DNA of 64,000 nucleotides from Chaetoderma sp. LZ-2023a. Taxonomy: Eukaryota; Mollusca; Caudofoveata; Chaetodermatida; Chaetodermatidae. Below are positions 4,999 through 64,000 of this stretch, piece after piece. The notes below the pieces were generated by a model. The model worked only from the letters and a program-made list of their open reading frames with translations, was not told the DNA's origin and did no database searches. How positions within the stretch are numbered: position 1 is the first letter of the stretch; each line of letters begins with the position of its first letter. The DNA is taken from assembly GCA_034401795.1 (NCBI GenBank), contig CM067367.1, positions 34,634,880 to 34,698,879 on the forward strand, in the 5' to 3' direction. Position numbers and translations under genes: made by a program.

Positions 4999-5304
4999 CC
5001 TTTCCAGGGTAGCCATCCATCATCTGACCTCGTATAACGTCATAATCAGTTCAGCGCGTGTATGATGATGTCACAATTATTACGTCACAAAGGGTTCCAT
5101 ATAGACGTCATCAAATCTCAAATAGTCCGACACGTTGTATGAATTGTATGTCTTTGTAATTGTTTTCTATTTAATAGGCAGCAACAGCACCCAGTCAAAT
5201 TAGTTTCAAAATATTCAACAGCTTACCTGTGTAGTTTATTTGGAAATTGATAGTCAGGGTGTTCAGAGATCAATCGATCCCAACACGAGCGAAGTGTGTG
5301 TGTG

Positions 5305-10079: not shown

Positions 10080-10187
10080 CTTGCCCCGATGGTAAATTCG
10101 GCAGAGACTGCAGCAAAACATGTAGATGCGGCCCATCAAACAGATCATGCGATCCAATCACTGGTGTCTGTTTGATACCTCCTCCCG
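10080..10187 (+). CDS. EGF-like exon 4 (short) of the engulfment-receptor-like gene
   Basis: The exon is 108 nt, phase 1-1, with acceptor GGCAG ending at 10079 and donor GTAAGA at 10188. It encodes ACPDGKFGRDC to TGVC followed by a proline-rich LIPPPG linker: six cysteines of an EGF-like module rather than eight, so the membrane-proximal module is truncated. It joins in phase to the transmembrane exon at 12315. A further exon between 10188 and 12314 is possible but I do not see one; that stretch holds a GTGA/GTGC microsatellite (about 10240-10310), C-rich sequence (10370-10430) and a MITE-1. Confidence 0.75.
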
Positions 10188-12314: not shown

Positions 12315-12411
12315 TGCCAAAAATGAGATTATCTACCGTACAAATTGCTGGAATTGCTATAGGGTGTGTAGCAGTGTTGCTCATCGTTCTCTTCATATTC
12401 TGGTGTTACTG
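12315..12411 (+). CDS. Transmembrane exon of the engulfment-receptor-like gene
   Basis: The exon is 97 nt, phase 1 to phase 2, with acceptor GTTTCAG ending at 12314 and donor GTGAGA at 12412. After VPKMRLSTVQ it encodes a hydrophobic helix of about 21 residues, IAGIAIGCVAVLLIVLFIF, then WCY. The next exon begins with a basic RRRLRHRK stop-transfer run, placing the N-terminus outside the cell. An (AAT)n microsatellite begins six nucleotides into the following intron. Reading through the donor would give an immediate stop, which supports splicing here. Confidence 0.85.
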
Positions 12412-13352: not shown

Positions 13353-13742
13353 ATGGAGGAATTCAGTTTTAGCTATTCCCCGCCCATCTTGAGCGGGGCT
13401 CCACCAACACTTCAAGCGTAGTGGGATCGATCGATCCCTGAACTCCCTGACTATCAATTTCCAGAATATGATACAGGTAAGTTGTTGAATATTTTGAAAC
13501 TAATTTGCCTGGATGCTGTTGCTGCCTGTGCTGCCCAGTCAAATTAGTTTCAAAATATTCAACCGCATGTTTATTAAATAGTAAAGACATACAATTCGTA
13601 CAATAGTGTTTAGTCCGTCATCAATTACACGTTCGTGATGTACTTAGCTACGCCACTCATGACGTAATTGATTATGACGTCAGTCCACACGTCACGTAGT
13701 TGATTATAGCATCATACGATTGATAGATAAACTGGAATCATC
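13353..13742 (+). mobile_element. MITE-1 copy (forward), in intron
   Basis: It runs from GGAGGAATTCAGTTTTAGC to GATAAACTGGAATCATCC. The hairpin is at 13480-13563, followed by the TGACGTAATTGATTATGACG half. Confidence 0.85.
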
Positions 13743-14583: not shown

Positions 14584-14705
14584 CCGGCGTCGTTTGCGTC
14601 ATCGAAAGGATGAAGCTATGAAAAAGGAACACGCTGCGGCCATGGGGAGAATGTGGCCACCTCGACTGAGCCAACTCAGCCAGATGGACAGAGATATGTT
14701 ACTGA
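14584..14705 (+). CDS. Juxtamembrane cytoplasmic exon 1 of the receptor gene
   Basis: The exon is 122 nt, phase 2 to phase 1, with acceptor TTTTTGTAG ending at 14583 and donor GTAAGT at 14706. It completes a Cys codon from the transmembrane exon, then encodes RRRLRHRKDEAMKKEHAAAM, GRMWPPRLSQLSQMDRDMLL and the first base of a Lys codon. The basic start is a normal stop-transfer signal. The rest is a charged helix-prone segment with no named domain. Confidence 0.8.
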
Positions 14706-16028: not shown

Positions 16029-16096
16029 AGCGCAACCCAGCATATGAGAAGCACAAAGATTCAATTGCAGGGTTGTCCAAAATTTCATTCAACACA
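16029..16096 (+). CDS. Juxtamembrane exon 2 with NPAY motif
   Basis: The exon is 68 nt, phase 1 to phase 0, with acceptor TTTTACTAG ending at 16028 and donor GTACGT at 16097. It encodes K-RNPAYEKHKDSIAGLSK and ISFNT. NPAY (codons 16034-16045) is an NPxY motif. In CED-1, Draper and MEGF10 such a motif recruits the PTB adaptor CED-6/GULP during engulfment; that role here is inferred. Using the alternative AG two bases downstream would create an early stop, which fixes the acceptor. It joins in phase 0 to the last exon at 22619. Confidence 0.8.
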
Positions 16097-16223
16097 GTAC
16101 GTATCGATTTGTAAATGTCATCTATGCCCCAGGGCATACATTATGCAAATAATTTGACTACGAATTGTTGCTGCCTATGCCAGGTTCTATTAGTCGATGA
16201 CATATCACTGGCGTATCTCATAA

Positions 16224-16618
16224 TGGACCTTTCCAAGTTTATTCATCGATCATATGACGTCATATGACGTCATAACCAACTAAGTGACGTGTAGGACGAC
16301 GTCATAATCATTACGTCATAGATGATTCTATTTGGCCTGTCTTTAGCTCGTAATAGTCCGACAGGTTGTACGAATTGTATGTCTCTACTATTTAATAAAC
16401 ATGCTGTTGGATATTTTGAAACTAATTTGACTGGACACTGTTGCTGCCATAGGCAGCAACAACACTGTTGCCATAGGCAGCAACAGCGCCCAGTCAAATT
16501 AGGTACAACATATTCAATGGCTTATCTGTATAATTTTCTGGAAATTGATAGTCAGAGAGATCAGAAATCGATCGATCCCAACACTAGCGAGGTGTGGGTG
16601 AAGCGTAGCTAGAGATTC
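16224..16618 (-). mobile_element. MITE-1 copy (reverse), in last intron
   Basis: It runs from GGACCTTTCCAAGTTTATTC to the GTGTGGGTGAAGCGTAGC block. Near the start it has two adjacent CATATGACGTCATA palindromes. The hairpin loop carries a duplicated GCCATAGGCAGCAACA segment at about 16445-16485. Confidence 0.85.
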
Positions 16619-16714
16619 CCAGATTCTACATTCTTTCTTGTAACAAGTATTGGATCTGTCTAGTCATTTGTATGATACATATGACGATGTGAGTACGGAT
16701 CCAAATTGTGGATT

Positions 16715-16911
16715 CCAGTTTATCCGTCAATCATATGATGTCATAATCAACTATGTGACGTGTAGAATGGCGTCAATTACATCATGAATGACGTCACCAA
16801 CACTTACTCGATGACGGACTAAGCATTGTCGTGCGAATTGTATTTTTTTACTATTTAATAAACACACTATTGAATATTTTGAAACTAATTTGACTGAGCG
16901 CTGTTGCTGCC
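16715..16911 (-). mobile_element. MITE-1, truncated (reverse)
   Basis: It runs from ATTCCAGTTTATCCGTCAATC to the first hairpin arm ending GCGCTGTTGCTGCC, then breaks into unrelated sequence. Confidence 0.8.
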
Positions 16912-17080
16912 GTCGGTTTTATTGTATGTCTGGCGTGGAAGATAATACTAATTTAAGCAATGTAGCGTGCCGGGTACAGCAACTGCTCTCTTTAGGGCTT
17001 TACAGTGCTGATGTTTATCCTGTGTCAAATAATATAACGAGAGTGTCCACAGCCGGCCGCAAAATCCCCGCGTAGGCTCT

Positions 17081-17331
17081 AGTAGTAGAATATTTAGGGT
17101 TGCGATAACAGAACATGGTGGGAGCCGCCGATCCGCGAACCATGGCTACAGGAGGGGAGGTGGGCTGTCAGAACAGTAAGTATGCACATACATTCCACAC
17201 ATCCCGAGAAAATATGCGATGCGCCAAAGCACACAAAATAGCTAACGCTTAAAACACTATCTCGCCGTTGTTATCTGTTAGATGTAATATGCCAGTTATC
17301 AGTAGGTCTGCCGCTAATAACTAGGACATAA
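17081..17331 (+). repeat. Left terminal inverted repeat of the 4.9-kb element
   Basis: It matches the reverse complement of 21734-22003 nearly base for base from AGTAGTAGAATA to CTAGGACATAA, apart from an insertion of about 18 bp and scattered substitutions. Confidence 0.9.
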
Positions 17332-17461
17332 CGTCTTATCTAGGCGGTGAACTAGGACATAACGTCTTATCTAGGTGGTGCTATATATAGTGATTGAATG
17401 TCAGTGGACCGTCTGTCTGTCTCTCTGTCTGTCTGTCTGTCAGTTGTCTGCCGCCAGGCTG

Positions 17462-17755
17462 GCCCCACCCCCAGACCGCCCACCACCACCCTACCTGCAC
17501 GTGATACCATCAAAATCCCCATATTAGAGAATCGCAACTGGATAGGTATACACGTATGCGGTGTAAACATGAACATAAAATCCCTATATTAGAGAAACGC
17601 AACTGGAGCCCCACCCCCAGACCGCCCACTACCACCCTACCCGCACGTGATACCATCAAAATCCCCATATTAGAGAATCGCAACTGGATAGGTATACACG
17701 TCTGCGGTGTAAACATGAACATAAAATCCCTATATTAGAGAAACGCAACTGGATA
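17462..17755. repeat. Two tandem copies of a 146-bp unit
   Basis: The units begin GCCCCACCCCCAGACCGCCC at 17462 and 17608. Each holds two TTAGAGAAxCGCAACTGG words. A further copy of that word lies at 20886, across the (ATC)n array. Confidence 0.9.
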
Positions 17756-17765
17756 GGTACATACG

Positions 17766-18052
17766 TCTGCTATTGGCATTGATGAAGTACTTCAAAATTT
17801 GGTGAGATTGTTGGAGCAGGGGCTTATTAGCCATACCACTTATGCCGAGAACCTGACAGCTCTCCTTCCCGAGAAGCCAACTCCAGCCCCACGCAGGAAG
17901 CTACCAACCACTCCCAAGAAGCCAACCCCAGCTCTCCTTTCCGAGAACCCCACCCCCACCCATAGCTAGAAACTCCACCCAAGTTCACAGATGAGGAGCT
18001 CGACAGGTTTCTTGATGCTATAATCCAGGACACTGAGGATCAGATGCCATGA
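17766..18052 (+). pseudogene. Element gene fragment 1, TDEEL-type C-terminus
   Basis: Reading from 17766: SAIGIDEVLQNLVRLLEQG, then a Pro/Lys-rich linker (LLPEKPTPAPRRKLPTTPKK). After a frameshift near 17950 come KFTDEELDRFLDAIIQ and DTEDQMP-stop. A similar ending (LTDEALAFLFDCLIDD) is encoded on the minus strand at 21292-21465, near the other TIR. Function unknown. Confidence 0.5.
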
Positions 18053-18080
18053 CTTTCTTCTTCTGAAACTTCTCGCGGTT

Positions 18081-18236
18081 ATGGTCGAGGTACTTTGTCA
18101 GAAGCTTGAGGAACTTCTTCAGAAGCGTGAGGAACTTCTTCAGAAGCTTGAGGAGCCTCTTCAGAAGCTTAAGGAACTTCGTCAGAAGCTTGAGGATGTT
18201 TCGGAAACTCTATCCACTGAGGATCAGATGCTATGA
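18081..18236 (+). CDS. Short coiled-coil ORF (51 aa) in the 4.9-kb element
   Basis: ATG at 18081, stop at 18234-18236. After MVEVLC the product is built from near-identical units of 6-12 residues (QKLEELLQKREELLQKLEE and so on), a Leu/Glu/Lys amphipathic repeat expected to form a coiled coil. At the DNA level this is a tandem repeat of AGAAGCTTGAGGAACTTCTTC-like 18-mers. The same sequence (GAGGATCAGATGCxATGAC and TTCTGAAACTTCTCGCGG) flanks the array on both sides, so the ORF probably arose by local duplication of the preceding gene's 3' end. It may not be expressed. Confidence 0.35.
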   Translation: MVEVLCQKLEELLQKREELLQKLEEPLQKLKELRQKLEDVSETLSTEDQML

Positions 18237-18390
18237 CTCTCTTCTTCTGAAACTTCTCGCGGAAGACCCACTTTGGCCATGCCTTCTTAGCATTTGCCTT
18301 GAGAACAGGTTTGATGAGGTAGTCTTGGTAGTTCTTGGCAGGGAAATTTAGAAAGTCCGCCAGATTACTCTCTAACTGCTCACGCCCTCT

Positions 18391-18970
18391 TTAATTGAAT
18401 ATGTGCTCAAAGGCCTCCTTGGGGCCGGCGGCCAACCCCTCCTCTCTACCTTCAGTATGACCAGTGGCATGCCCAACCTCATGGCCCTCAGTCATGGCTG
18501 CACCGATATCCTCTCGGAAGTAATCTGTGGCCCCAGCCTGTATAGCATCCAACATCCGGTGTTCATCATCAGTGTGGAGACTGAATAAGCCAGCCCACTT
18601 CCCGACCGTTAGTAGAACGTTGGGATCAACCCTAGTCTTCTGGAGAGCTAGAATTACAGGACTCTTAGTGGGTGTCCTGGGGAGATCTAGTGATCTGCCC
18701 TGGGCACTGTCAAACTTCCGGTAGAGAATCCGAGTCAATAATTCCTTCATACTACGGGCCGATGTGGTTTCTTCTATGGCAGTCAATATCGCCACATCAG
18801 GTGGAGGTGGGACCTTGGCTCGCTCGTGGATAATGTTGACGTCACGAAGTAGTCGTCAGAGCCTGTCAATCGGTAGTTCTACTGGTTTCTTCTTGGAGGG
18901 TTGCACTGGTTTCTGCCCTCCAAAGACGATCTGCTGGAGAACGTTACCAAATATCGCTGTTTAAACCTGT
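18391..18970 (-). pseudogene. Element gene fragment 2 (minus), one internal stop
   Basis: The frame reads from about 18965 (AIFGNVLQQIVFGGQKPVQ) through a TGA near 18855. It continues as an open frame of 134 codons from 18795 to the stop at 18391, with TTSARSMKELLTRILYRKF, LLTVGKWAGLFSLHTDDEH and a Gly/His/Glu-rich end (EGHEVGHATGHTEG). I do not recognise a family. It is divergent from the plus-strand gene starting at 18981, so both could share the region near 18970 as a start. Confidence 0.5.
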
Positions 18971-18980
18971 ATATAGCTAG

Positions 18981-20080
18981 ATGTTAAACATGCAGCAGTA
19001 CGTACGGCATCCTGATGGAGCGGTTGAACCCACGACCTCGTACCACACCGATCCTCGAAGGGACTGCTTGACAGTCATTCGACCTAGTAGCCAAGATGCA
19101 AACCCTCTCTCCGCTGCAGGGAAGTACATCGACTTCACTATTTCCGGACAGATCTGTGGGATTAGGAGTATGGTGCTCAAGTTTAAGCTCAAGAGCACTG
19201 AGGAGAAGGATGTAGAGCTCCTGCAGATGGTGAGCAGGTGGGAGATTGTGCAGAACAACACCACCTTAGACACCACCTACATGAACGATGAGTATCGACT
19301 CCTGGCTCCTCTAGCTCGTGGGCCAGCCTACTATGCGAAGGGGAAGAGGTACTATGCTTATGTAATGAAGGTTTCAAAGAATTCAACGTACAGTCAGACA
19401 TAAAAATGCCTGTCGCGGTGCTACTTTTCTCCTTCCTCGAGAACACACATGTGAACCTGGCCTTGATGCAGGACAAGCTGTTTCTCTGGGTGTACACTGA
19501 ACATCTTCCGGATGTAACGATGAACTCTCCACGACTTCATGTATGGCATGATGAGAACGAACAGGAACTAAAACGGGAGGGTTCTAGACAACGAATCCTA
19601 CATGTAGCGTAAGAGTACCGGCAGGTCCAGGCCACAGATAACCAGTGCCTAGAGTTGATATTGTAACGAGGTGCCTCAGATTCTGTAGCTGTGGCAGTCT
19701 TGGTTCAGAAAGGAGGGGTGGTCCAGCAGGTGGGTGAGCTAAATGACTTCAAATTTATAGTGGCTGGTACAGTGTTCTCGGTGAACTACGCAATCGGGCT
19801 GATTGGTGTCTCTATCAACAGGAGATAAAGTCGTATGCCTTACTGCGTCTAACCAGTGGCCCTGAGGATCTGTAGATGGCACTTGAGGTACCGCCTCGGA
19901 GGTAAGAATATCTCACCTGATAATGGCAACCAGCTCAGCTTTTATGTTGGGAACTTGCTTGGGGAGTGAGTGGGCACTCGCACAGTAGGCGTGACAGTAC
20001 TGTACATCAGCTATGCCAAGGTTTGTGTATCTCACACCGCTGGTATTCAGCTTGAGCAGACGTAGAGCATGATTCCATCT
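18981..20080 (+). pseudogene. Element gene fragment 3 (plus), decayed; possibly a structural protein
   Basis: An open frame of 140 codons starts at 18981 (MLNMQQYVRHPDGAVEP) and includes GKYIDFTISGQICGIRSMV and VSRWEIVQNNTTLDTTY. After a stop at 19403 similar-quality sequence continues in another frame (VLLFSFLENTHVNLALMQD at 19412). It then has repeated stops to about 20070 (for example VAGTVFSVNYAIGLIGVSI, ISPDNGNQLSFYVGNLLGE). The beta-rich, hydrophilic-hydrophobic alternation would suit a jelly-roll capsid-type protein of a virus-like transposon, but this is a guess from composition. It is clearly inactive. Confidence 0.5.
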
Positions 20081-20128
20081 CTAAAGATAGGTGATCACTA
20101 AAGACAGGTCAGCACCTACCATAGGTCT

Positions 20129-20296
20129 CATCAGCTACAGCTAGGTGGTCAGTAATGCAGGTGGTCATTAAGGCAGGTGATGCGGCACCAGATCCTCTGT
20201 GCTACATGTGAACATCAGCTACAGCTAGGTGGTCAGTAATGCAGGTGGTCATTAAGGCAACTGATGCAGCACCTGATCCTCTGTGTCACCTGTGAA
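20129..20296. repeat. 84-bp tandem duplication
   Basis: CATCAGCTACAGCTAGGTGG starts at 20129 and again at 20213. The two units differ at a few sites. Confidence 0.9.
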
Positions 20297-20491
20297 CATG
20301 CCAGAGTCCGCCATTGTGCAGATGGTAGGCACTTTAGCATTCTGCCAAGTGAGCGTTGCCAAGGCAGCTGCAAAAAGCCTGTGGGTAATCCCCTCATGCC
20401 GATGTGACACTGGTCATGACTACGTGTTTGTTTGATTCAGTTTGTTTGATATGAAGACATGAGACTGGGCATGTATTTGTGATCCAACATC

Positions 20492-20566
20492 ATGTCTATC
20501 ATCATCATCATAATCATAATCATCATCATCATCATCATCATCAGCAGCATCGGCATCATGTCTATT

Positions 20567-20622
<56 letters not shown>

Positions 20623-20678
20623 TATGTCTATCATCATCAGCATCATCATCAGCATTATGTCTATCATCATCATCATCG

Positions 20679-20714
<36 letters not shown>

Positions 20715-20737
20715 GCATCATCATCAGCATTATGTCT

Positions 20738-20791
<54 letters not shown>

Positions 20792-20832
20792 AGCAGCATT
20801 ATGTCTATCATCATCATCATCATCATCATCAG
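20492..20832. repeat. (ATC)n array with interspersed ATGTCTATC units
   Basis: Trinucleotide array broken at intervals by TTATGTCTATC and AGCAGC blocks, giving a loose higher-order pattern. All three poly-His, poly-Ile and poly-Met frames are artefacts. Confidence 0.95.
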
Positions 20833-21291
20833 TAGTTATAAAATAAGTGTTTCAGAACGGGCCCCCACCATCAGTTGATGCCCTATTAGAGAAACGCAAC
20901 TGTATAGGTAACAGAATCGCTCACTCAGTCGAGCTAACTGAATCTGAAACTCAGTCATGGGTTACCCCGAAGAACTATGGCGTTACATCAATGGTGTAGG
21001 CTGCGCGGCATAGCGGGGGAAAGTGGTAAGATCATTACATGACTGGGCGACTATGCAAATAAATCACTTGAGTTCTGGAGAGCTTCTCCTGACCTATCAT
21101 TCGCAATAGTAGTAGACGAGGTACCAACCTGAAAACCCCACCAGGCACCAAGTTAGGGGTTAGACGATGTGGTATCCAGTGACAGCAATGGCAATGACAG
21201 AACTAGGACAGTATTTAGATCATCTGCTAACGATCCACAGTATCAATATGGATGATGCTATCGAACCAAAATAAATGTGGTGCTAGATTTT

Positions 21292-21465
21292 TTATTTTAG
21301 AGTAATATCATCAATGAGGCAGTCGAAGAGGAAGGCGAGCGCCTCATCTGTGAGATTCTTGTGCATGTGTGTCTCTGCTTTGGGCTTCCTGTAAGGGTGC
21401 AGGCGGGTCTCTACTGTGGGCTTCCTGTATGGTGCTGGAATGGGTGACTCGCTGTGAGGGAGTCT
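21292..21465 (-). pseudogene. Element gene fragment 4 (minus), TDEAL-type C-terminus
   Basis: Minus-strand frame ending at the stop at 21292-21294. It shows duplicated PYRKPTVETRLHPYRKPKAE, then LTDEALAFLFDCLIDDITL. It mirrors the 17766-18052 ending in motif, orientation and position relative to its TIR. Start not visible. Confidence 0.45.
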
Positions 21466-21733
21466 TATGAATAAACCTGTAGTGTACTACAGTTTGTAGT
21501 GGAAGTTTTGTACTTGCCTGACGTAAATACACTTATGATGTCGTAGGTCTAAGTGGTGTACTTGTCTGGCATGGTCTGAACAATGGATGGGGGCCCACCT
21601 GTGGGTTGGGGTGGGCCCTACGTTGTAAAACACATCGCAGGCAGCCATCCCTCTGTTCTGGCAGCCCACCTCACCTCCTGTAGCCGGCGATCCACGATCC
21701 ACGGCTCCCACCACCCTCTGTTCTGACAGCCCA

Positions 21734-22003
21734 TTATGTCCTAGTTATTAGCCGCAGACCTACTGATAACTGGCATATTACATCTAACAGATAACAACAG
21801 TGAGATAGTGTTTTAAGTATTAGCTATTTTATGTGCTTAGGCGCATCGCATATTTTCTCGGGACACAATCCCGAGTTGGAATGTGTGGAATGTATGTGCA
21901 TAATTACTGTTCTGACAGCTCACCTCCCCTCCTGTAACAACGGATCGTGGATCGGCCTTCTCCCACCACGTTCTGTTCTAGCAAACCTAAATATTCTACT
22001 ACT
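21734..22003 (-). repeat. Right terminal inverted repeat of the 4.9-kb element
   Basis: Mirror of 17081-17331, ending TATTCTACTACT at 22003. Partial inner copies of the GGCTGTCAGAACAG..GGTGGGAGCC block lie at about 21655-21735. Confidence 0.9.
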
Positions 22004-22074
22004 GCTCGGGTGTGGACATTATATCTGCGTGGCATGCCGGGGTGTCTGCCGTTTAGATGTGGTCAGTGATCTCA

Positions 22075-22215
22075 TACCTGAAGAATTCTATAATTCTTTG
22101 ATCCCTGACATTTCAGAATCTCAATTTCAAGGTAACTGTACAGTTAAGCTGTTGAATATTTTTTAAACTAAATTGACAGCAACCATATAGCCCTACACAG
22201 CAACAACTCCCAGTC
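22075..22215 (+). mobile_element. MITE-1 fragment
   Basis: Only GATCCCTGACATTTCAGAATC through the first hairpin arm and a decayed second arm (CCCAGTCAAATGAACTT) remain. Confidence 0.65.
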
Positions 22216-22359
22216 AAATGAACTTAATTAAAGGATAAACAGAATAAACTTTGCATTTGTGAAGGAATTCTTTCATATTTGATCGTTCTTGCTCATTCAA
22301 AGTCTTAATGCACCCACTCATGTACGTATTATTTAACCATTTAATGCCTAAATTTGGTC

Positions 22360-22530
22360 ATGAAAAGCAAAATATTTGCTTATTGAATGTCCATTTGCAG
22401 GTTAAGAGACTATTTTTGAAAATTTACCACTGGAATGGCTGGCTCGGTAACCCAGCCAGTCATTCCAGTGATAAATTTCACAAATAGTCTTCTCTTTCTC
22501 TGCACATGAGCGTTCCTTAACACCACCTGA
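22360..22530. mobile_element. MITE-2 copy (palindromic)
   Basis: GTCCATTTGCAGGTTAAGAG..TTACCACTGGAATGGCTGGC and its complement (GCCAGTCATTCCAGTGATAA..) form a stem of about 60 bp. It lies about 90 bp upstream of the last exon's acceptor. Confidence 0.85.
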
Positions 22531-22618
22531 AGAGGGTTTTGGCTGGCTTCGTCGTGATAGAGTTAATTAATTACTTATCCTAGAACTAAATGTACTAAAT
22601 ATGTATTTTGTCTTTCAG

Positions 22619-24703
22619 GATAAAAGAGACTCGGGCATCTTTGACGCGATTGAAGAAGATCCGGGATATATGACAGTGTCAGAGATAGAACGATCTCTGG
22701 CTAGAAGCATAAGCAGTAGTACAAATAAGACTGGCACCATCAGTAAGAACCACAAACCTGGGGCACGAACTATAAGCGCGTCCACAAGTCAATATGACCA
22801 ACAGTACCCTGTATTTTCTAGCATTTATCTTAAGGATTCTGATTACACTGACTGTGACGGAGCTGGCGGGCATATGAGTATGTCCGCCATTGATTCGGAT
22901 GTATCGAGTAGATGCTCGCAAGGTGCTAATAGTTACCTGAGTGTTCATGGTGATGACAAGGAGTCAGATGATGGCGGCTACCCACCTGAAACAGTTTATA
23001 ATCCCGAATCCAGTTGTTATAGTCCCTACTCAATCTCGTCCGATTATCCAGACTCAGGGGGATCATGTTATCTGCCTCAAAGGGTATTAGAAGCTACCGA
23101 TTCCGGTGTGTTGCGTAATCCGCGTGATTTGTTCGGTGGGAAAGATGTGGTTCGTGAGAGTTATGTGTACCCATCTAGTGTATTTAGTGATACTGATGTA
23201 CAGTCGGGAGATGAAACCGAATATGACATGAGCGACAACTACACAACTGAAGACCATGAGTATACAGGGATAGAGGCATTAAGAAGAGGGCTTTCTTCAC
23301 AACAGTCGATTCCTAACAAGGATAGTGGGGTTGCTAATCAAGGGAGGGGAGGAAATTTAGAGCAAGGCCACGAACATACACGAGTAGTTGATAAGAGTGA
23401 AATAATTGACTCAGTTCCCAGTGATGCTGATTGTAGAAAACTTAAGTCGCAAGACAGTTACTTTCTGACCTATGAAGATCTGGTGCGGCCAGATATAACA
23501 ATTGACGATGACAGTGATTCCAATACGGAACCAGAATATGATATGAGTGAGGACCACGAGCACATAGCGATGCAAAATAAGAAAATAAATCGTTTGTCTT
23601 CACTGTCGATTCCTGACAATCAGACCAGTGCTGCTAAGCTATGCATATCTGCGATCGCGGGTGAAGATCGTGCCGAACAGGCACCAGTAACCGAACAGGC
23701 ACCAGTAACCGATGAGAGTAAAATAGTGGACTCGGTTCCCAGTGATGCTGATTGCCGAGAATTTAAGTCGCAGGACAGTTACTTTCAAACTTATGAAGAT
23801 CTGGCACGACCTGGTATAACACTAGACGATGATAGTGATTCGAATAAGGAACCAGGATATGATATGAGTGAGCACATAGCGATGCAAAACAAGAAAATAA
23901 ATCTTTTGTCATCACTGTCGATTCCTAACAATCAGACCAGTGCTGCTAAGCTATGCATATCTGCGATCGTGGGTGAAGAGCGTGCCGAACAGGCACCAGT
24001 AACCGAACAGGCACCAGTAACCGATGAGAGTAAAATAGTGGACTCGGTTCCCAGTGATGCTGATTGCCGAAAATTTAAGTCGCAGGACAGTTACTTTCAA
24101 ACTTATGAAGATCTGGCACGACCTGGTATAACAATAGACGATGATAGTGATTCGAATAAGGAACCAGAATATGATATGAGTGAGCACATAGCGATGCAAA
24201 ACAAGAAAATAAATCTTTTGTCATCACTGTCAACTCCTGACAATCATACCAGTGCTGCTAATCCTTACATATCTGTGTCTGTGGATGAAGATCACGCCGA
24301 ACAGGCACAAGTAACCGATGATAGTAAAATAGTGGACTCGGTTCACGGTGATTCAGTTCACAGAACAATTCAGGCTCAAGATAGTTATTTTGAGACGTAT
24401 GAAGACCCTTCCAGATATAGTATAACGATTGACAAGACTTTTCCATCGCGGAATATGGCTAATGAATATGACAATGCCACTACAGAGGACAATTTACCGG
24501 TACTACGTCCGGTAAAAGTTCACAAACATGATTTGCTACCCGTAGTTGATTTGGGTCGAATAGACTTGGTTGCGGATCATTCTACGCATGAAGTCCTGAC
24601 TCCACCTGTATCTATTGACAATGAACGGGAGTGTAATGAACAATCGGGGCATCCAGAATACGACAATAACTTTACGGACGATTATATGAACACACACATG
24701 TAG
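22619..24703 (+). CDS. Last exon: repeated tyrosine-motif cytoplasmic tail of the receptor
   Basis: The exon is 2,085 nt (694 codons plus TAG at 24701), phase 0, with acceptor GTCTTTCAG ending at 22618. An open frame extends 18 nt into the intron, but the splice site sets the start at DKRDSGIFDAIEEDPGYM. The tail is acidic and Ser/Asp-rich with no catalytic domain. It holds many tyrosine motifs: YMTV near the start, YDMS and YTGI around 23222-23272, and three YEDL (23471, 23792, 24104) plus one YEDP (24398), each inside a tandem unit. YxxL/I motifs, like the NPAY in the previous exon, are docking sites for SH2 or PTB proteins in CED-1, Draper and MEGF10. Here they would form a multivalent array. 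The length, nearly 700 residues, far exceeds typical tails of that family. Downstream signalling is inferred. Confidence 0.85.
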   Translation, partial: DKRDSGIFDAIEEDPGYMTVSEIERSLARSISSSTNKTGTISKNHKPGARTISASTSQYDQQYPVFSSIYLKDSDYTDCDGAGGHMSMSAIDSDVSSRCSQGANSYLSVHGDDKESDDGGYPPETVYNPESSCYSPYSISSDYPDSGGSCYLPQRVLEATDSGVLRNPRDLFGGKDVVRESYVYPSSVFSDTDVQSGDETEYDMSDNYTTEDHEYTGIEALRRGLSSQQSIPNKDSGVANQGRGGNLEQGHEHTRVVDKSEIIDSVPSDADCRKLKSQDSYFLTYEDLVRPDITIDDDSDSNTEPEYDMSEDHEHIAMQNKKINRLSSLSIPDNQTSAAKLCISAIAGEDRAEQAPVTEQAPVTDESKIVDSVPSDADCREFKSQDSYFQTYEDLARPGITLDDDSDSNKEPGYDMSEHIAMQNKKINLLSSLSIPNNQTSAAKLCISAIVGEERAEQAPVTEQAPVTDESKIVDSVPSDADCRKFKSQDSYFQTYEDLARPGITIDDDSDSNKEPEYDMSEHIAMQNKKINLLSSLSTPDNHTSAANPYISVSVDEDHAEQAQVTDDSKIVDSVHGDSVHRTIQAQDSYFETYEDPSRYSITIDKTFPSRNMANEYDNATTEDNLPVLRPVKVHKHDLLPVVDLGRIDLVADHSTHEVLTPPVSIDNERECNEQSGHPEYDNNFTDDYMNTHM
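23393..24460 (+). repeat. Four tandem ~100-residue units in the receptor tail
   Basis: The units start at SEIIDS/SKIVDS (codons at 23396, 23717, 24029, 24323), with spacings of 321, 312 and 294 nt, all multiples of three. Each has DSVPSDADCR, QDSYFxTYEDL, IDDDSDSN and EYDMSE. Units 2 and 3 are almost identical in DNA; unit 4 is degenerate (TYEDPSRYSITI). A shorter EQAPVT duplication sits at the ends of units 1 and 2. Confidence 0.9.
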
Positions 24704-35400: not shown

Positions 35401-35748
35401 CTACTATGATAATACCCAAAGTTATGTGTATTTTTCTTACCGATAGCCCTTAATATAGACGGCCTCGCTGTTGTGTATACCATCCTCATAAAATCCCAAT
35501 AATTTACTAGTGCAAGAGTATTATGACATCCAACATTGGTTTTCTTATACTTGTGTATGGCTTCTATAGTGCCATCATGTCAAAATTTTATATCAGACAA
35601 CTGTGCATGACTGGACCTGACAAAGCACTTATAAAGGAATTTTTGGTCTTAACATCTTAACAGGGTCGATAGAATCGCGGTAGCGGCGGGTTCCGGATTT
35701 TTGTATCTTCCGGATTTTTTTATCACGCCCAACGTTGTGGAATCCTAG

Positions 35749-35940
35749 TGTACCGCCACACCCTTTCCCGTGTTAGAATTTGAACCAAACCCGGACAGTA
35801 CTTTCCCAGATATCCATAGATGCAGAATTTGATCCGGGTTCTTTTACACAGATCAAGGCCAAAGTCCGAGAATCCGCGTGCATGGCTTCCTTCGTTGTGT
35901 ACCAAATCGTATTGGTAGTTTTTAAGATACATCCCGGAAA
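35749..35940 (+). repeat. Dispersed element, copy 2, with satellite tail
   Basis: Blocks TTTCCCGTGTTAGAATTTGA, GATATCCATAGATGCAG, GATCAAGGCCAAAGTC and CTTCCTTCGTTGTGTACCAA match 1490-1637 and, inverted, 55113-55350. The (CTGT/CTGC)n satellite starts five bases after it. Confidence 0.7.
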
Positions 35941-35944
35941 AAGT

Positions 35945-37790
<1,846 letters not shown>

Positions 37791-37844
37791 AAACATGATG
37801 GTTTATTGTGCCGCTACCCACAGCTAAAAAGTTACTGATTGACA

Positions 37845-45682: not shown

Positions 45683-46106
45683 GAAAAATATATTATTATT
45701 CTTATTATTATTAATAATTATTATTATTGTTGTTGTTGTTGTTGTTGTTGTGGTCGTCGTCGTCGTCGTCGTCGTTGTTGTTGTAACATTTGTAAATTGG
45801 TAGTATTATTGCTAAACGTTTGTACACACATGTTCCGGGCGGAACATTTTAGAAACAAGTTTTCGCTACTCAAAACAATTGGTCTACACGTTTTCTCCAG
45901 TAAAGGTAATTGTATGCCAGCCCCTCGCTTCGCCAAGCATTATTTCGTTGCGGATTTCCATATAATTATTGTAGTTTCCTAATCTCACACTGACTATTTA
46001 AATATATCAGGAGAATACATAGCTGCATAGCAATCACGCACACACGTATTGTGCTCTGCTTATAGACAGAGACAATAGCCTATTATATTCTCGCATTCAA
46101 GTCATT

Positions 46107-47985
46107 ATGTCAAAGAAAGTGAAATTGACATCTGATCCCACAGTGGATTTAGCACACACGAACTGGTCCCTGTGTGTTATTTGCCAGCAGTCCACAACGG
46201 AGCATCTCATAGATCCATGTAGTAACACAAATCGTGACAATGTGATTACGAGTTATCGGTCATTAGCTGATAACCTTGATAGGCTACAGCAACTCCATGC
46301 CCTTCCACCATACCTGGATCTATGTAGGTTGAATGATGGATCTGGAAACCCATTTTTAGATGACAGTTTTGACTTAGTGTCTCTAGATACCAAAGTCATT
46401 ATGGCCGAGTCTGTAGTGAATGCGATCCGAACAACAGAAGAACTAGGCATCAGACAGTACCACGCATTCGTCGCAGATCGACTATCTGTATCATCAAAAT
46501 CGGTATATGACCAAATCAAAACAGAGGAAGAGTACCAGAACCAACAATAAGCTTGTTGCAATGAAGAGAGATGCACAGTTATTCTCTAGACTGTACATTT
46601 CCTGCCAATCCAGAGACGGAGACCTTGATTCATTCTTTGAGCATGAGAATCATCCATGGCTCCCATCACTTGCTGAGAGCAACACAATGCGCCAAGGAAG
46701 AAAATCAGATCTGATGGGATGTTTGGAAGCATTAGTAGCTCGTGCAGCTGATTGTCCAGAGGTTGAAGTGAAGCTCATTGACGGAGCAGCTATGATGCAT
46801 AATCTAGAACCCACGAAATCAAACGTGGTTGTGAACACATTTGGAGATTTTGCAGAGCACTTCTTCCTCCCACACATTGCTAGACAACTACAGACGGTTA
46901 AAAGATTGGATGTTGTATGGGACGTGTATAAGGCGGGAAGCTTGAAGACACACGCTAGAGAATTACGGGGACATGCTGAAGCTCTTCGTGTTGCATCGAG
47001 TACAAGACTCCATCAAAATTGGAAAACTTTCCTACGAGTTGATGCAAACAAAACAGGCCTCTTCACCGTTCTCGCACATACATTGGAATCATTCGAGCTA
47101 CCAGAAGGAAAGATACGCGTCACAACATGTGAGGAAAACGTGCTGATGAGGCCAGAGCATGACGTCTCACAACTCGCGCCATGCATGTAAGATAAAGCAG
47201 ATGGTAGAATGTTGCTCCACGCCTTCCATGCATATCACCAAGGTTATCGAACAATAATGATTCTTGCTACAGATACAGACGTCGTAATCCTAGCCATATG
47301 GACAGCAAACTTTCTTCGTGGGTGTGATCTCTTGGTCGCATTTGGCCATGGGAAGACCTTCCGCTATGTATCAGCTCATGGCATTGCAACAGTTTTGGGT
47401 TCAGAAGCGTCACAAGGACTGCTATTTATGCATGCTTTCTCCAGGTGTGACACTGTGTCTGCATTTTGTGGGATTGGCAAGAAGACAGCATGGGAAGTTT
47501 GGAGGACTTCAGATCTATTCAAGTCACTATGTAGGAGACTGTCTGATGCCCCGGTGTCTCTGTGTGACAATGACATGGAAACGCTGGAGAGGTTTGTTGT
47601 ACTACTGTACAAACGCACATCACCATTTTCAAAGGTTAATGAGGCACGAAAACGGCTTTTCGCTTTTGGCAACAGGCAGCTAGAAAACATTCCTCCGACA
47701 AGTGCAGCTCTGCTGCAACACACCAAACGTGCTGTGTTCCAGGCAGGTCATCTTTGGGGCCAACCGCTCCACGCAAATGCAAAAACGCCATCGCCAGCTG
47801 ACTGGGGTTGGGTCAGAGATGGAGACACTTGGTCACCACAATGGAGTTTGCTTGCAGACGCATCTAATGCATGCCGGGAACTCGTAAAATGTCCTTGCAA
47901 AAGTAATTGCACTGGCAGATGCAAATGCCATAAATCCAACTTATCTTGTACACAGTTGTGCTCATGCGGTGCACAGTCCGTGTGA
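46107..47985 (+). pseudogene. Transposon nuclease gene C, near-intact (one frameshift, one stop)
   Basis: Three overlapping frames form one protein of about 620 residues. Frame 46107-46550 (MSKKVKLTSDPTVDLAHTNW, with a CVICQ..C zinc-finger-like start) passes with a +1 shift near 46507-46550 into 46507-47190 (LFSRLYISCQSRDGDLDSFF, VDVVWDVYKAGSLKTHAREL-type core). A single TAA at 47188 separates this from 47209-47985, which stays in the same frame. The catalytic core, in order, is ADGRMLLH just after the stop (EADTR in other copies), ILATDTDVVILAI, HAFSRCDTVSAF (GCD in relatives), ERFVVLLYKRTS and LLQHTKRAVFQAGHLWG. It ends in a CXC cluster CPCKSNCTGRCKCHK..CTQLCSCG. The acidic E-A-D, D-x-D and G-x-D spacing resembles the XPG-I/PIN nuclease fold. 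This is the youngest copy in the window. Confidence 0.8.
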
Positions 47986-54495: not shown

Positions 54496-54750
54496 ATTCT
54501 ATACATACTGAAACACTTGCCGTACAAATTGTTAAGCAGTATATCGCTGAAATTGCGCACCGCCACATAGGGCTAGTTCCTGTTGTGCAAGTTGACTAGT
54601 GTGGCTTTACGCGTATCGACCACGTAATCGATTTATTATGGATTTTGGTCATGAACCATTGACTAGGAACTATTGACCTCAAACAGGTTTGTACTATGAA
54701 ATGTCAAAGTTTGGTGTAAACATTTTTTGCTCTCACTTTGACAACTTAAC

Positions 54751-54751
<1 letters not shown>

Positions 54752-54810
<59 letters not shown>

Positions 54811-54939
54811 ACCAGCCAACCAGCCAACCAGACAGACAGACAGACAGACGGACGGACGGACGGACGGACGGCCGGACGGACGGACGGACGGACGGACGGA
54901 CGGACGGACGGACGGACGGACGGACGGACAGACAGACAT

Positions 54940-54981
<42 letters not shown>

Positions 54982-55112
54982 GGACGGACGGACGGACGGA
55001 CGGACGGACGGACGGACGGACGGACGGACGGACGGACGGACGGACGGGCGGGCGGGCGGGCGGGCGGGCGGGCGGGCGGGCGGGCGGGCGGGCGGACGGA
55101 CGGACGGACAGC
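54752..55112. repeat. Blocked tetranucleotide satellite CCAG > GACA > GACG > GACA > GACG > GGCG
   Basis: CCAG units to 54825, GACA to 54848, GACG to 54927, GACA to 54980, GACG to about 55045, GGCG to 55093, GACG to 55109. One point change separates successive blocks. All frames are open because the period is four. Confidence 0.97.
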
Positions 55113-55350
55113 TGTAAAAGCGTATTTCGGGCTATATCTAAAAAAACCAATGATCCGATTTTACAACGAAGGAACTTGCAAGAGGATTTCGAGACTTTGG
55201 CCCTGATGCGGATAAAAAAAACCTCGGATCCGGATCGGATCAAATTCTGGATCTGTGGATAACTCCGAAACTTCCGGTCCGATTTGGCTCAAATTTTAGC
55301 CCTGGGATTGGTGTGGGTGTATATTCTAAAAATCCCGAACCCTTGTTTTT
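55113..55350 (-). repeat. Dispersed element, copy 3 (inverted), with satellite tail
   Basis: On the minus strand it carries GGCTAAAATTTGAGCCAAAT, GGATCCGAGG, CAAAGTCTCG and CTTCCTTCGTTGTAAAATCG, then runs into the (CCGT)n satellite. This is the same order as 35749-35945. Confidence 0.7.
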
Positions 55351-63837: not shown

Positions 63838-64000
63838 CCGTTGAATATTTTGAAACTAATTTGACTGGGAGATGTTGCGGCCATAGGCAACAACAGCCCC
63901 TAGTCAAATTAGTTTCAAAATAGTGTTTGAATTGAACAGGTGTCTGCTGTTGTTATAGGCAACAGCAGCTTACAGTCAAATGACTTTCCAAATATTCACT
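63838..64000. mobile_element. MITE-1 hairpin, continuing past the window edge
   Basis: Complete stem at 63838-63925 (GGAGATGTTGCGGCCATAGG loop). A second similar arm with a GTTGTTATAGGCAACAGCAG hairpin follows to the edge. Confidence 0.75.

Follow-up and report, generated by a model that had tools for sequence, protein, structure and literature searches.

Does the open frame at 22619-24703 of this locus encode the cytoplasmic tail of an engulfment-type receptor in which tyrosine motifs have been multiplied by tandem repetition, as an earlier note had proposed, and what might such an array do? We addressed this question in a 64,000-nucleotide stretch of DNA from the mollusc Chaetoderma sp. LZ-2023a, analysed over its whole length and termed the window, together with the surrounding genome and databases of protein sequences. 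Splice-site and frame analysis of the forward strand delineated a visible gene of eight exons with GT-AG borders, joining in one open frame. These exons are predicted to make up the 3' portion of a gene for a receptor with EGF repeats and a single membrane pass; the 5' start lies to the left of the window. The product is probably an animal cell-surface protein of the engulfment or scavenger kind.

Three exons encode complete EGF-like repeats: exon 1 of the visible set (74-208), of the C-x3-C type and also recognised by a profile match, and exons 2 (781-915) and 3 (2788-2925), both of phase 1-1. Exon 4 (10080-10187) encodes a truncated repeat without the last two cysteines, exon 5 (12315-12411) a transmembrane (TM) helix (IAGIAIGCVAVLLIVLFIF; mean hydropathy 3.12), exon 6 (14584-14705) a basic juxtamembrane segment beginning CRRRLRHRK, and exon 7 (16029-16096) the sole NPxY of the protein, located by motif scan as NPAY at 16034-16045. 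The cytoplasmic tail continues in exon 8 (22619-24703), a single exon of 2085 nt with 694 codons and then the stop TAG. The array described below thus lies downstream of a TM exon (exon 5) and an NPAY exon (exon 7), the order that the earlier note had given, and the predicted join from 16096 to 22619 proved phase-consistent and bordered by GT..AG, the acceptor TTTGTCTTTCAG falling exactly at 22619 in the phase of the exon-7 donor, with one open frame across all eight exons. A profile built from the gene's own EGF repeats revealed no further EGF-like frame elsewhere in the window above the inclusion threshold. Neither the TM-juxtamembrane-NPAY part (no homologue at E <= 1 among 495 candidates) nor exon 8 alone (no protein homologue among the 7994 scored candidates sharing most words) retrieved a relative, and the join between exons 7 and 8 is therefore without orthologue support; exon 8 also found no relative in IMG/VR, from which records of the source genome may be absent. 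Matches to Cementoin, P27 terminase and other Pfam/NCBIfam families within exon 8 fell under curated cut-offs and were discarded; we think that they are repeat-driven.

Intron 7 measures 6.5 kb, of which about 4.9 kb is occupied by a transposon-like element (17081-22003) that lies outside the protein and carries inverted terminal repeats of roughly 250 nt, with arms within 17081-17331 and 21734-22003; the native intron would therefore be ~1.6 kb. Two ORFs inside the element, of 140 aa (18981-19400, plus strand) and 154 aa (18394-18855, minus strand), gave no Pfam match above cut-off, and the 154-aa ORF gave a weak PHROG match (E 0.0068) to a family of unknown function. Other parts of the window are also repetitive. 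A short interspersed repeat ending GTTGAATATTTTGAAACTAATTTGACTGGG has 23 matches across the window when up to 2 mismatches are allowed (shuffles gave a mean of 0), exemplified by 5190-5219, 13534-13563 and 63840-63869 and including at least five facing pairs, and has no exact copy in IMG/VR, where the source genome may again be unrepresented; long simple-repeat arrays at 35723-37838 and 54663-55288 are open in several frames. The region 46023-47985 contains three ORFs (175, 247 and 264 aa) separated by one frame change and one stop. Together they resemble an animal gene that is broken or split by introns, or else a transposon, and neither the 175-aa nor the 264-aa ORF matched a Pfam family above cut-off.

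The tandem repeats within exon 8 are far beyond chance. Copies start at 23370, 23691, 24003 and 24297, with successive starts 321, 312 and 294 nt apart (each step a whole number of codons), and TRF assigned the array a period of 312, 2.9 copies and a score of 1467. When parsed in codon register, unit U1 (23384-23704) reads YFLTYEDL ... EYDMSE, U2 (23705-24016) YFQTYEDL ... GYDMSE, U3 (24017-24310), near-identical to U2 in its first part, YFQTYEDL ... EYDMSE, and the degenerate U4 (24311-24490) YFETYEDP ... EYDNA. DNA steps and codon register together confirm the four in-frame units originally reported, three of them with YEDL and EYDMSE or a variant, and inspection extended that list by the degeneracy of U4, by a partial older unit and by three C-terminal YxN sites. 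The partial unit, U0 (23162-23383), was recognised by protein alignment to U1-U3, with a score to U1, U2 or U3 that none of 1000 shuffles matched, and has EYDMS while lacking YEDL. The YxN sites fall in the C-terminal stretch 24467-24691 (YDN at 24467, YDN at 24659 and YMN at 24683), and we take them to be of the Grb2-type consensus. YF.TYED accordingly occurs in four units, YEDL in three with YEDP in U4, and YDMS in U0, U1, U2 (as GYDMS) and U3. The near-identity of U2 and U3 in DNA, also asserted in the earlier note, holds over the first 138 nt (98.6%) and gives way over a later 137-nt block (87.6%), in which U1 and U2 are 95.6% identical. Being like U3 in its first part and like U1 later, U2 makes the array a mosaic, as would be expected of unequal exchange or conversion, and the tail appears to be best explained by a unit of roughly 104 codons that was duplicated in tandem several times, each time in frame.

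The dN/dS comparison suggested for the YEDL units was carried out over the first 45 codons of each, in the coding frame and in two shifted frames, and indicated that the older units have diverged under purifying selection, a signal confined to the coding frame: U1-U2 (0.17, p 2e-4), U1-U3 (0.14, p 7e-5), U1-U4 (0.36, p 0.014), U2-U4 (0.36, p 0.02) and U3-U4 (0.32, p 0.009), pairs that are not independent, U2 and U3 being nearly identical over the 45-codon block. In the shifted frames the same five pairs were not significant (p >= 0.11) and met 4 to 12 stops. The U2-U3 pair itself, with a dN/dS of 1.05 over 98 codons, is too young to judge. Confinement of purifying selection to the coding frame argues that the array is translated and constrained. 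All three tyrosine columns are invariant across the U1-U4 block; the motif cores are only modestly more conserved than the other columns, with 10 of 14 conserved in the cores and 26 of 55 overall (p 0.036), so that selection may act on the whole unit rather than on its cores. We read the array, on these alignments, as genuine, selected as coding sequence and novel in its details. Among the titles listed in searches of the open-licence literature, none concerned a tandem array of tyrosines in an EGF receptor from a mollusc.

To which family the receptor belongs is indicated by its extracellular part. Searches with the EGF-TM part found nine proteins: Prorops Draper, an Octopus 'protein draper' (46% identical to the model over the EGF repeats), four bird PEAR1 (marked partial), a Plakobranchus 'MEGF10', a Dictyocaulus EGF protein and a Haliotis 'scavenger receptor class F member 2-like'. 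The C5-C6 spacing of the model is x3, by strict pattern in repeats 2 and 3 and by eye in repeat 1 (CPKGC), repeat 4 being truncated. C-x3-C also characterises the three molluscan hits (Octopus, Plakobranchus and Haliotis), and the six non-molluscan hits have x1 spacing, one of them with a single x3 match beside nine C-x-C. Repeats of the form C-x-C..G[YFWM] number 5 to 11 in each of these six and are absent from the model. An F5/8C domain is present in the Octopus and Plakobranchus hits; the Haliotis record gave no match to F5/8C. The Pfam check of the spliced EGF-TM part returned no EGF model (seven families were listed, all TM-type and below cut-off), so that assignment of the EGF repeats rests on homologues and the cysteine pattern; among solved structures, similarity was limited to weak EGF likeness to TIE2, 6u11 and SCARF1.

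An engulfment-receptor-like character, as first proposed, is in part borne out by the EGF repeats, the single TM helix, one NPxY, isolated YxxL sites as in CED-1 and an expanded, constrained array. Searches with the EGF part do retrieve proteins named Draper, PEAR1, MEGF10 and scavenger receptor F. Placement in the EMI-bearing CED-1/Draper/MEGF10 line is not supported, the EGF spacing being C-x3-C, not C-x-C, and the 80 kb upstream, some of which reads N, yielding an F5/8C half-domain and no plausible EMI match. We consider the best explanation to be that the gene belongs to a molluscan family, variously named Draper, MEGF10 or SCARF, that would be defined by C-x3-C EGF repeats and headed in some members by F5/8C. 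The names 'draper' and 'MEGF10', when given to molluscan EGF receptors, may accordingly stand for a separate family that has expanded and whose tails change fast. InterPro entry IPR011489 we take to be EMI. Two MEGF10 genes of Aplysia are tabulated with that entry in one report (PMC9334734), and another places MEGF10-family transcripts among those differing between oyster families of unequal Perkinsus tolerance (PMC9892467).

Sequences upstream of the window and elsewhere in the genome bear on the same question. About 17 kb upstream on the same strand, a 180-nt exon at window -17449 to -17270 matches F5/8C over the initial half of the domain, with E 8.3e-5 but below the Pfam cut-off, and is putatively linked to the gene. 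The second half was not found in the 80 kb left of the window, where the 5 kb adjoining the window read N; an apparent candidate at window -14689 was discarded, another frame there being a long unrelated ORF. Near the F5/8C exon, at about window -15050 to -14720, we also observed a long ORF, unrelated to the receptor, that by eye has the look of a mobile element. The best EMI match in the same 80 kb, of which the 5000 bases next to the window and another 2500 farther upstream are N, was on the minus strand with E 0.33, and a genome-wide search for the EMI family is uninformative, giving no match either in the genome or in any of its 14 controls.

Interrogation of the organism's own genome (2.44 Gb) with exon 8 at E <= 1 returned a single match, exon 8 itself (32 candidates scored), and thus no second long tyrosine tail by that search. 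With the EGF-TM-NPAY query, scoring of 144 of 258 candidates produced at least 45 matches at E <= 1e-3, seven representing the gene's own exons and 38 lying elsewhere, several in clusters on contigs C4, C8, C11 and C17. Seventeen of these 38 were looked at. Fourteen short EGF matches examined comprised 12 with x3 spacing and two with x4. The best outside match, on contig C1 (135.69-135.71 Mb), is a separate gene with C-x-C repeats of the classic Draper/PEAR1-like type; a reading of its ORFs would place a reverse-transcriptase-like element between its exons. The minus strand of the 20.5 kb around this match contains C-x-C EGF exons, and no TM segment followed by basic residues under a simple hydropathy rule; two other paralogue stretches (6 kb) showed no long tyrosine tail by eye. 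The genome therefore has both EGF types, the window gene being of the more numerous one.

The whole cytoplasmic part comprises 761 aa with 35 tyrosines. The tail is acidic (134 D/E against 58 K/R), falls on the disordered side of the charge-hydropathy line and is probably disordered. The cytoplasmic part contains one NPxY, four YxxL/I, three YxN and eight Yxx-phi, the last made up of the three YEDL and five others. Neither YxxL/I nor YxN is enriched, counts of 4 and 3 being reached by 863 and 370 of 2000 residue shuffles, respectively; what is beyond chance, unlike these raw counts, is the repeated, constrained unit. A canonical ITAM (YxxL/I-x6-12-YxxL/I) is absent from the tail, none of its four YxxL/I being paired at 6-12 residues; the same pattern occurs once in the insect (Prorops) Draper, once in the Haliotis protein and in none of the seven other hits. 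The earlier note had envisaged docking of CED-6/GULP- or Syk-type adaptors along the array. With the only NPxY in exon 7, outside the repeats, and no canonical ITAM, though the pattern detects one in insect Draper, the array does not qualify as a platform for either CED-6/GULP or Syk.

The predicted protein layout is instead that of CED-1, not of Draper, with the isolated site multiplied. We propose, at what we judge to be even chances of being right, that the array multiplies the CED-1 mode of signalling. Ligand would cluster the receptor, whereupon Src-family kinases could phosphorylate tyrosines in YF-x-TYEDL and EYDMS; these phosphosites, standing singly, would each attract an adaptor with one SH2 domain (NCK or Src type) and not Syk, a kinase with tandem SH2 domains; and the single, membrane-near NPAY would bind a CED-6/GULP-type PTB adaptor. 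With more units each receptor would offer more adaptor sites, and actin assembly and uptake might then require less clustering. Both the kinase step and the adaptor step are what we infer, SH2 preferences being the background to the adaptor assignment. YEDL and YDMS are putative SH2 sites and no proven NCK consensus, and the missing YEDL leucine of U4 counts against the docking model. CED-1 is described in one study as having no ITAM and a single YXXL tyrosine that is phosphorylated by SRC-1 and bound by NCK-1; a Y1019F mutant fails to rescue engulfment, and CED-6 binds the NPXY without phosphorylation (PMC9388098). In the same source NCK-1 binding is linked to ubiquitination of the receptor by TRIM-21 and to its degradation (PMC9388098), so that more NCK sites could mean turnover rather than uptake. 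Other work reports that multivalent nephrin-NCK-N-WASP forms membrane clusters assembling actin (PMC4238058) and that in vaccinia A36 the position of Nck and Grb2 sites matters (PMC9333988).

Turnover is at the centre of one alternative, in which the repeats form a sorting module that binds AP-2 mu via YEDL and sets internalisation or recycling, or provide SH2 sites that mainly mark the receptor for ubiquitination. YEDL fits Yxx-phi, with three copies and five further such sites in the tail; AP2 and clathrin are reported to have a role in CED-1-related clearance (PMC3656144), and the TRIM-21-dependent degradation that follows NCK-1 binding to CED-1 points the same way (PMC9388098). Yet the EYDMS half, which is not Yxx-phi, has been kept too, and the first tyrosine of YF-x-TYED is invariant in all four units. 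Acidic context, moreover, suits kinase substrates at least equally well, and we hold this alternative to be possible, if somewhat unlikely. Retention of every tyrosine column in the U1-U4 block, with strong frame-specific purifying selection between older units, also weighs against neutral or nearly neutral growth of a disordered spacer, in which tyrosines would merely hitchhike and unit number would be without consequence. Such growth, clearly unlikely in our estimation, would accord with the U2-U3 ratio, which reveals no constraint yet, with a mosaic such as unequal exchange would give, and with motif counts within the chance set by composition.

That exon 8 stands alone as a gene of one exon, with no part in the EGF receptor, could be argued from its frame, which runs 16 codons upstream of 22619 with an in-frame ATG inside, and from the lack of a confirming orthologue for the exon 7-8 join. 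We consider this very unlikely: the exact acceptor, the phase match and the single frame over eight exons speak against it, the long intron is for the most part transposon-like insert, and the acidic, tyrosine-bearing, tryptophan-free composition of exon 8 is typical of a receptor tail. It is highly improbable that the gene is a true CED-1/Draper/MEGF10 orthologue, headed by EMI and equipped with a Syk/Shark ITAM platform. That view is compatible with the one NPxY and with the likeness of the EGF part to Draper and PEAR1, and molluscs can have an EMI-type MEGF10 if the Aplysia entries are a guide (PMC9334734); C-x3-C spacing, the missing ITAM, the upstream F5/8C half-domain exon and the existence of a separate C-x-C EGF gene in the genome all oppose it.

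On the preferred reading, a multiplied CED-1-type docking unit, the array could make a strong multi-site signalling hub. We further suggest, although we think it rather unlikely, that the signalling strength of a phagocytic receptor evolves by tandem duplication within one coding exon, one Src-kinase/SH2 docking unit being gained with each 104-codon duplication, and that differences in unit number correspond to individual engulfment thresholds. The relation of receptor valency to engulfment threshold has, to our knowledge, been studied mostly with engineered receptors; a natural receptor with a minisatellite-like array of docking sites in one exon, its older units constrained, would, if the reading is true, supply a natural series for that question.

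Several docking tyrosines in one chain, clustering NCK-type adaptors, are a feature of p130Cas. Nephrin has this arrangement too (PMC4238058), and the window protein would share it. Both proteins are unrelated to the window receptor. We know of no evidence that their sites derive from near-identical 312-nt DNA repeats. The Octopus and Plakobranchus proteins resemble the window gene in their C-x3-C EGF repeats and both contain F5/8C, as against the half F5/8C exon found upstream here. No segment of the recorded Octopus protein is convincing as a TM helix (the best hydropathy is 1.09), and its tail is accordingly not comparable; among the nine hits, none has a tail as long as the 761 aa here. 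The Plakobranchus protein has a TM helix and a short tail that by eye bears its own repeated tyrosine sites (NQYDTAVDQNAAAVNPYETAVDQ...), so that a tyrosine-repeat tail is not unique to the window gene. That tail, however, comprises 182 aa and 9 tyrosines against 761 aa and 35 in the window protein, shows no significant similarity to it (best blastp E 7) and, unlike it, is part of a protein without NPxY.

The Draper and PEAR1 proteins share EGF repeats, and each of the five Draper and PEAR1 hits has one NPxY in its tail; they differ in C-x-C rather than C-x3-C EGF spacing and in tail length, which in the one Draper and four PEAR1 hits (PEAR1 marked partial) is 120-241 aa against 761 here. According to a review, EMI is found in Draper, MEGF10, PEAR1 and CED-1, and MEGF10 and Draper combine an ITAM with NPxY where CED-1 has one YxxL and one NPxY (PMC8092387). 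With C. elegans CED-1 the window protein has in common EGF repeats, one TM segment, one NPxY and isolated YxxL without an ITAM (PMC9388098). In place of the one YXXL of CED-1, the window protein presents three YEDL and a degenerate fourth.
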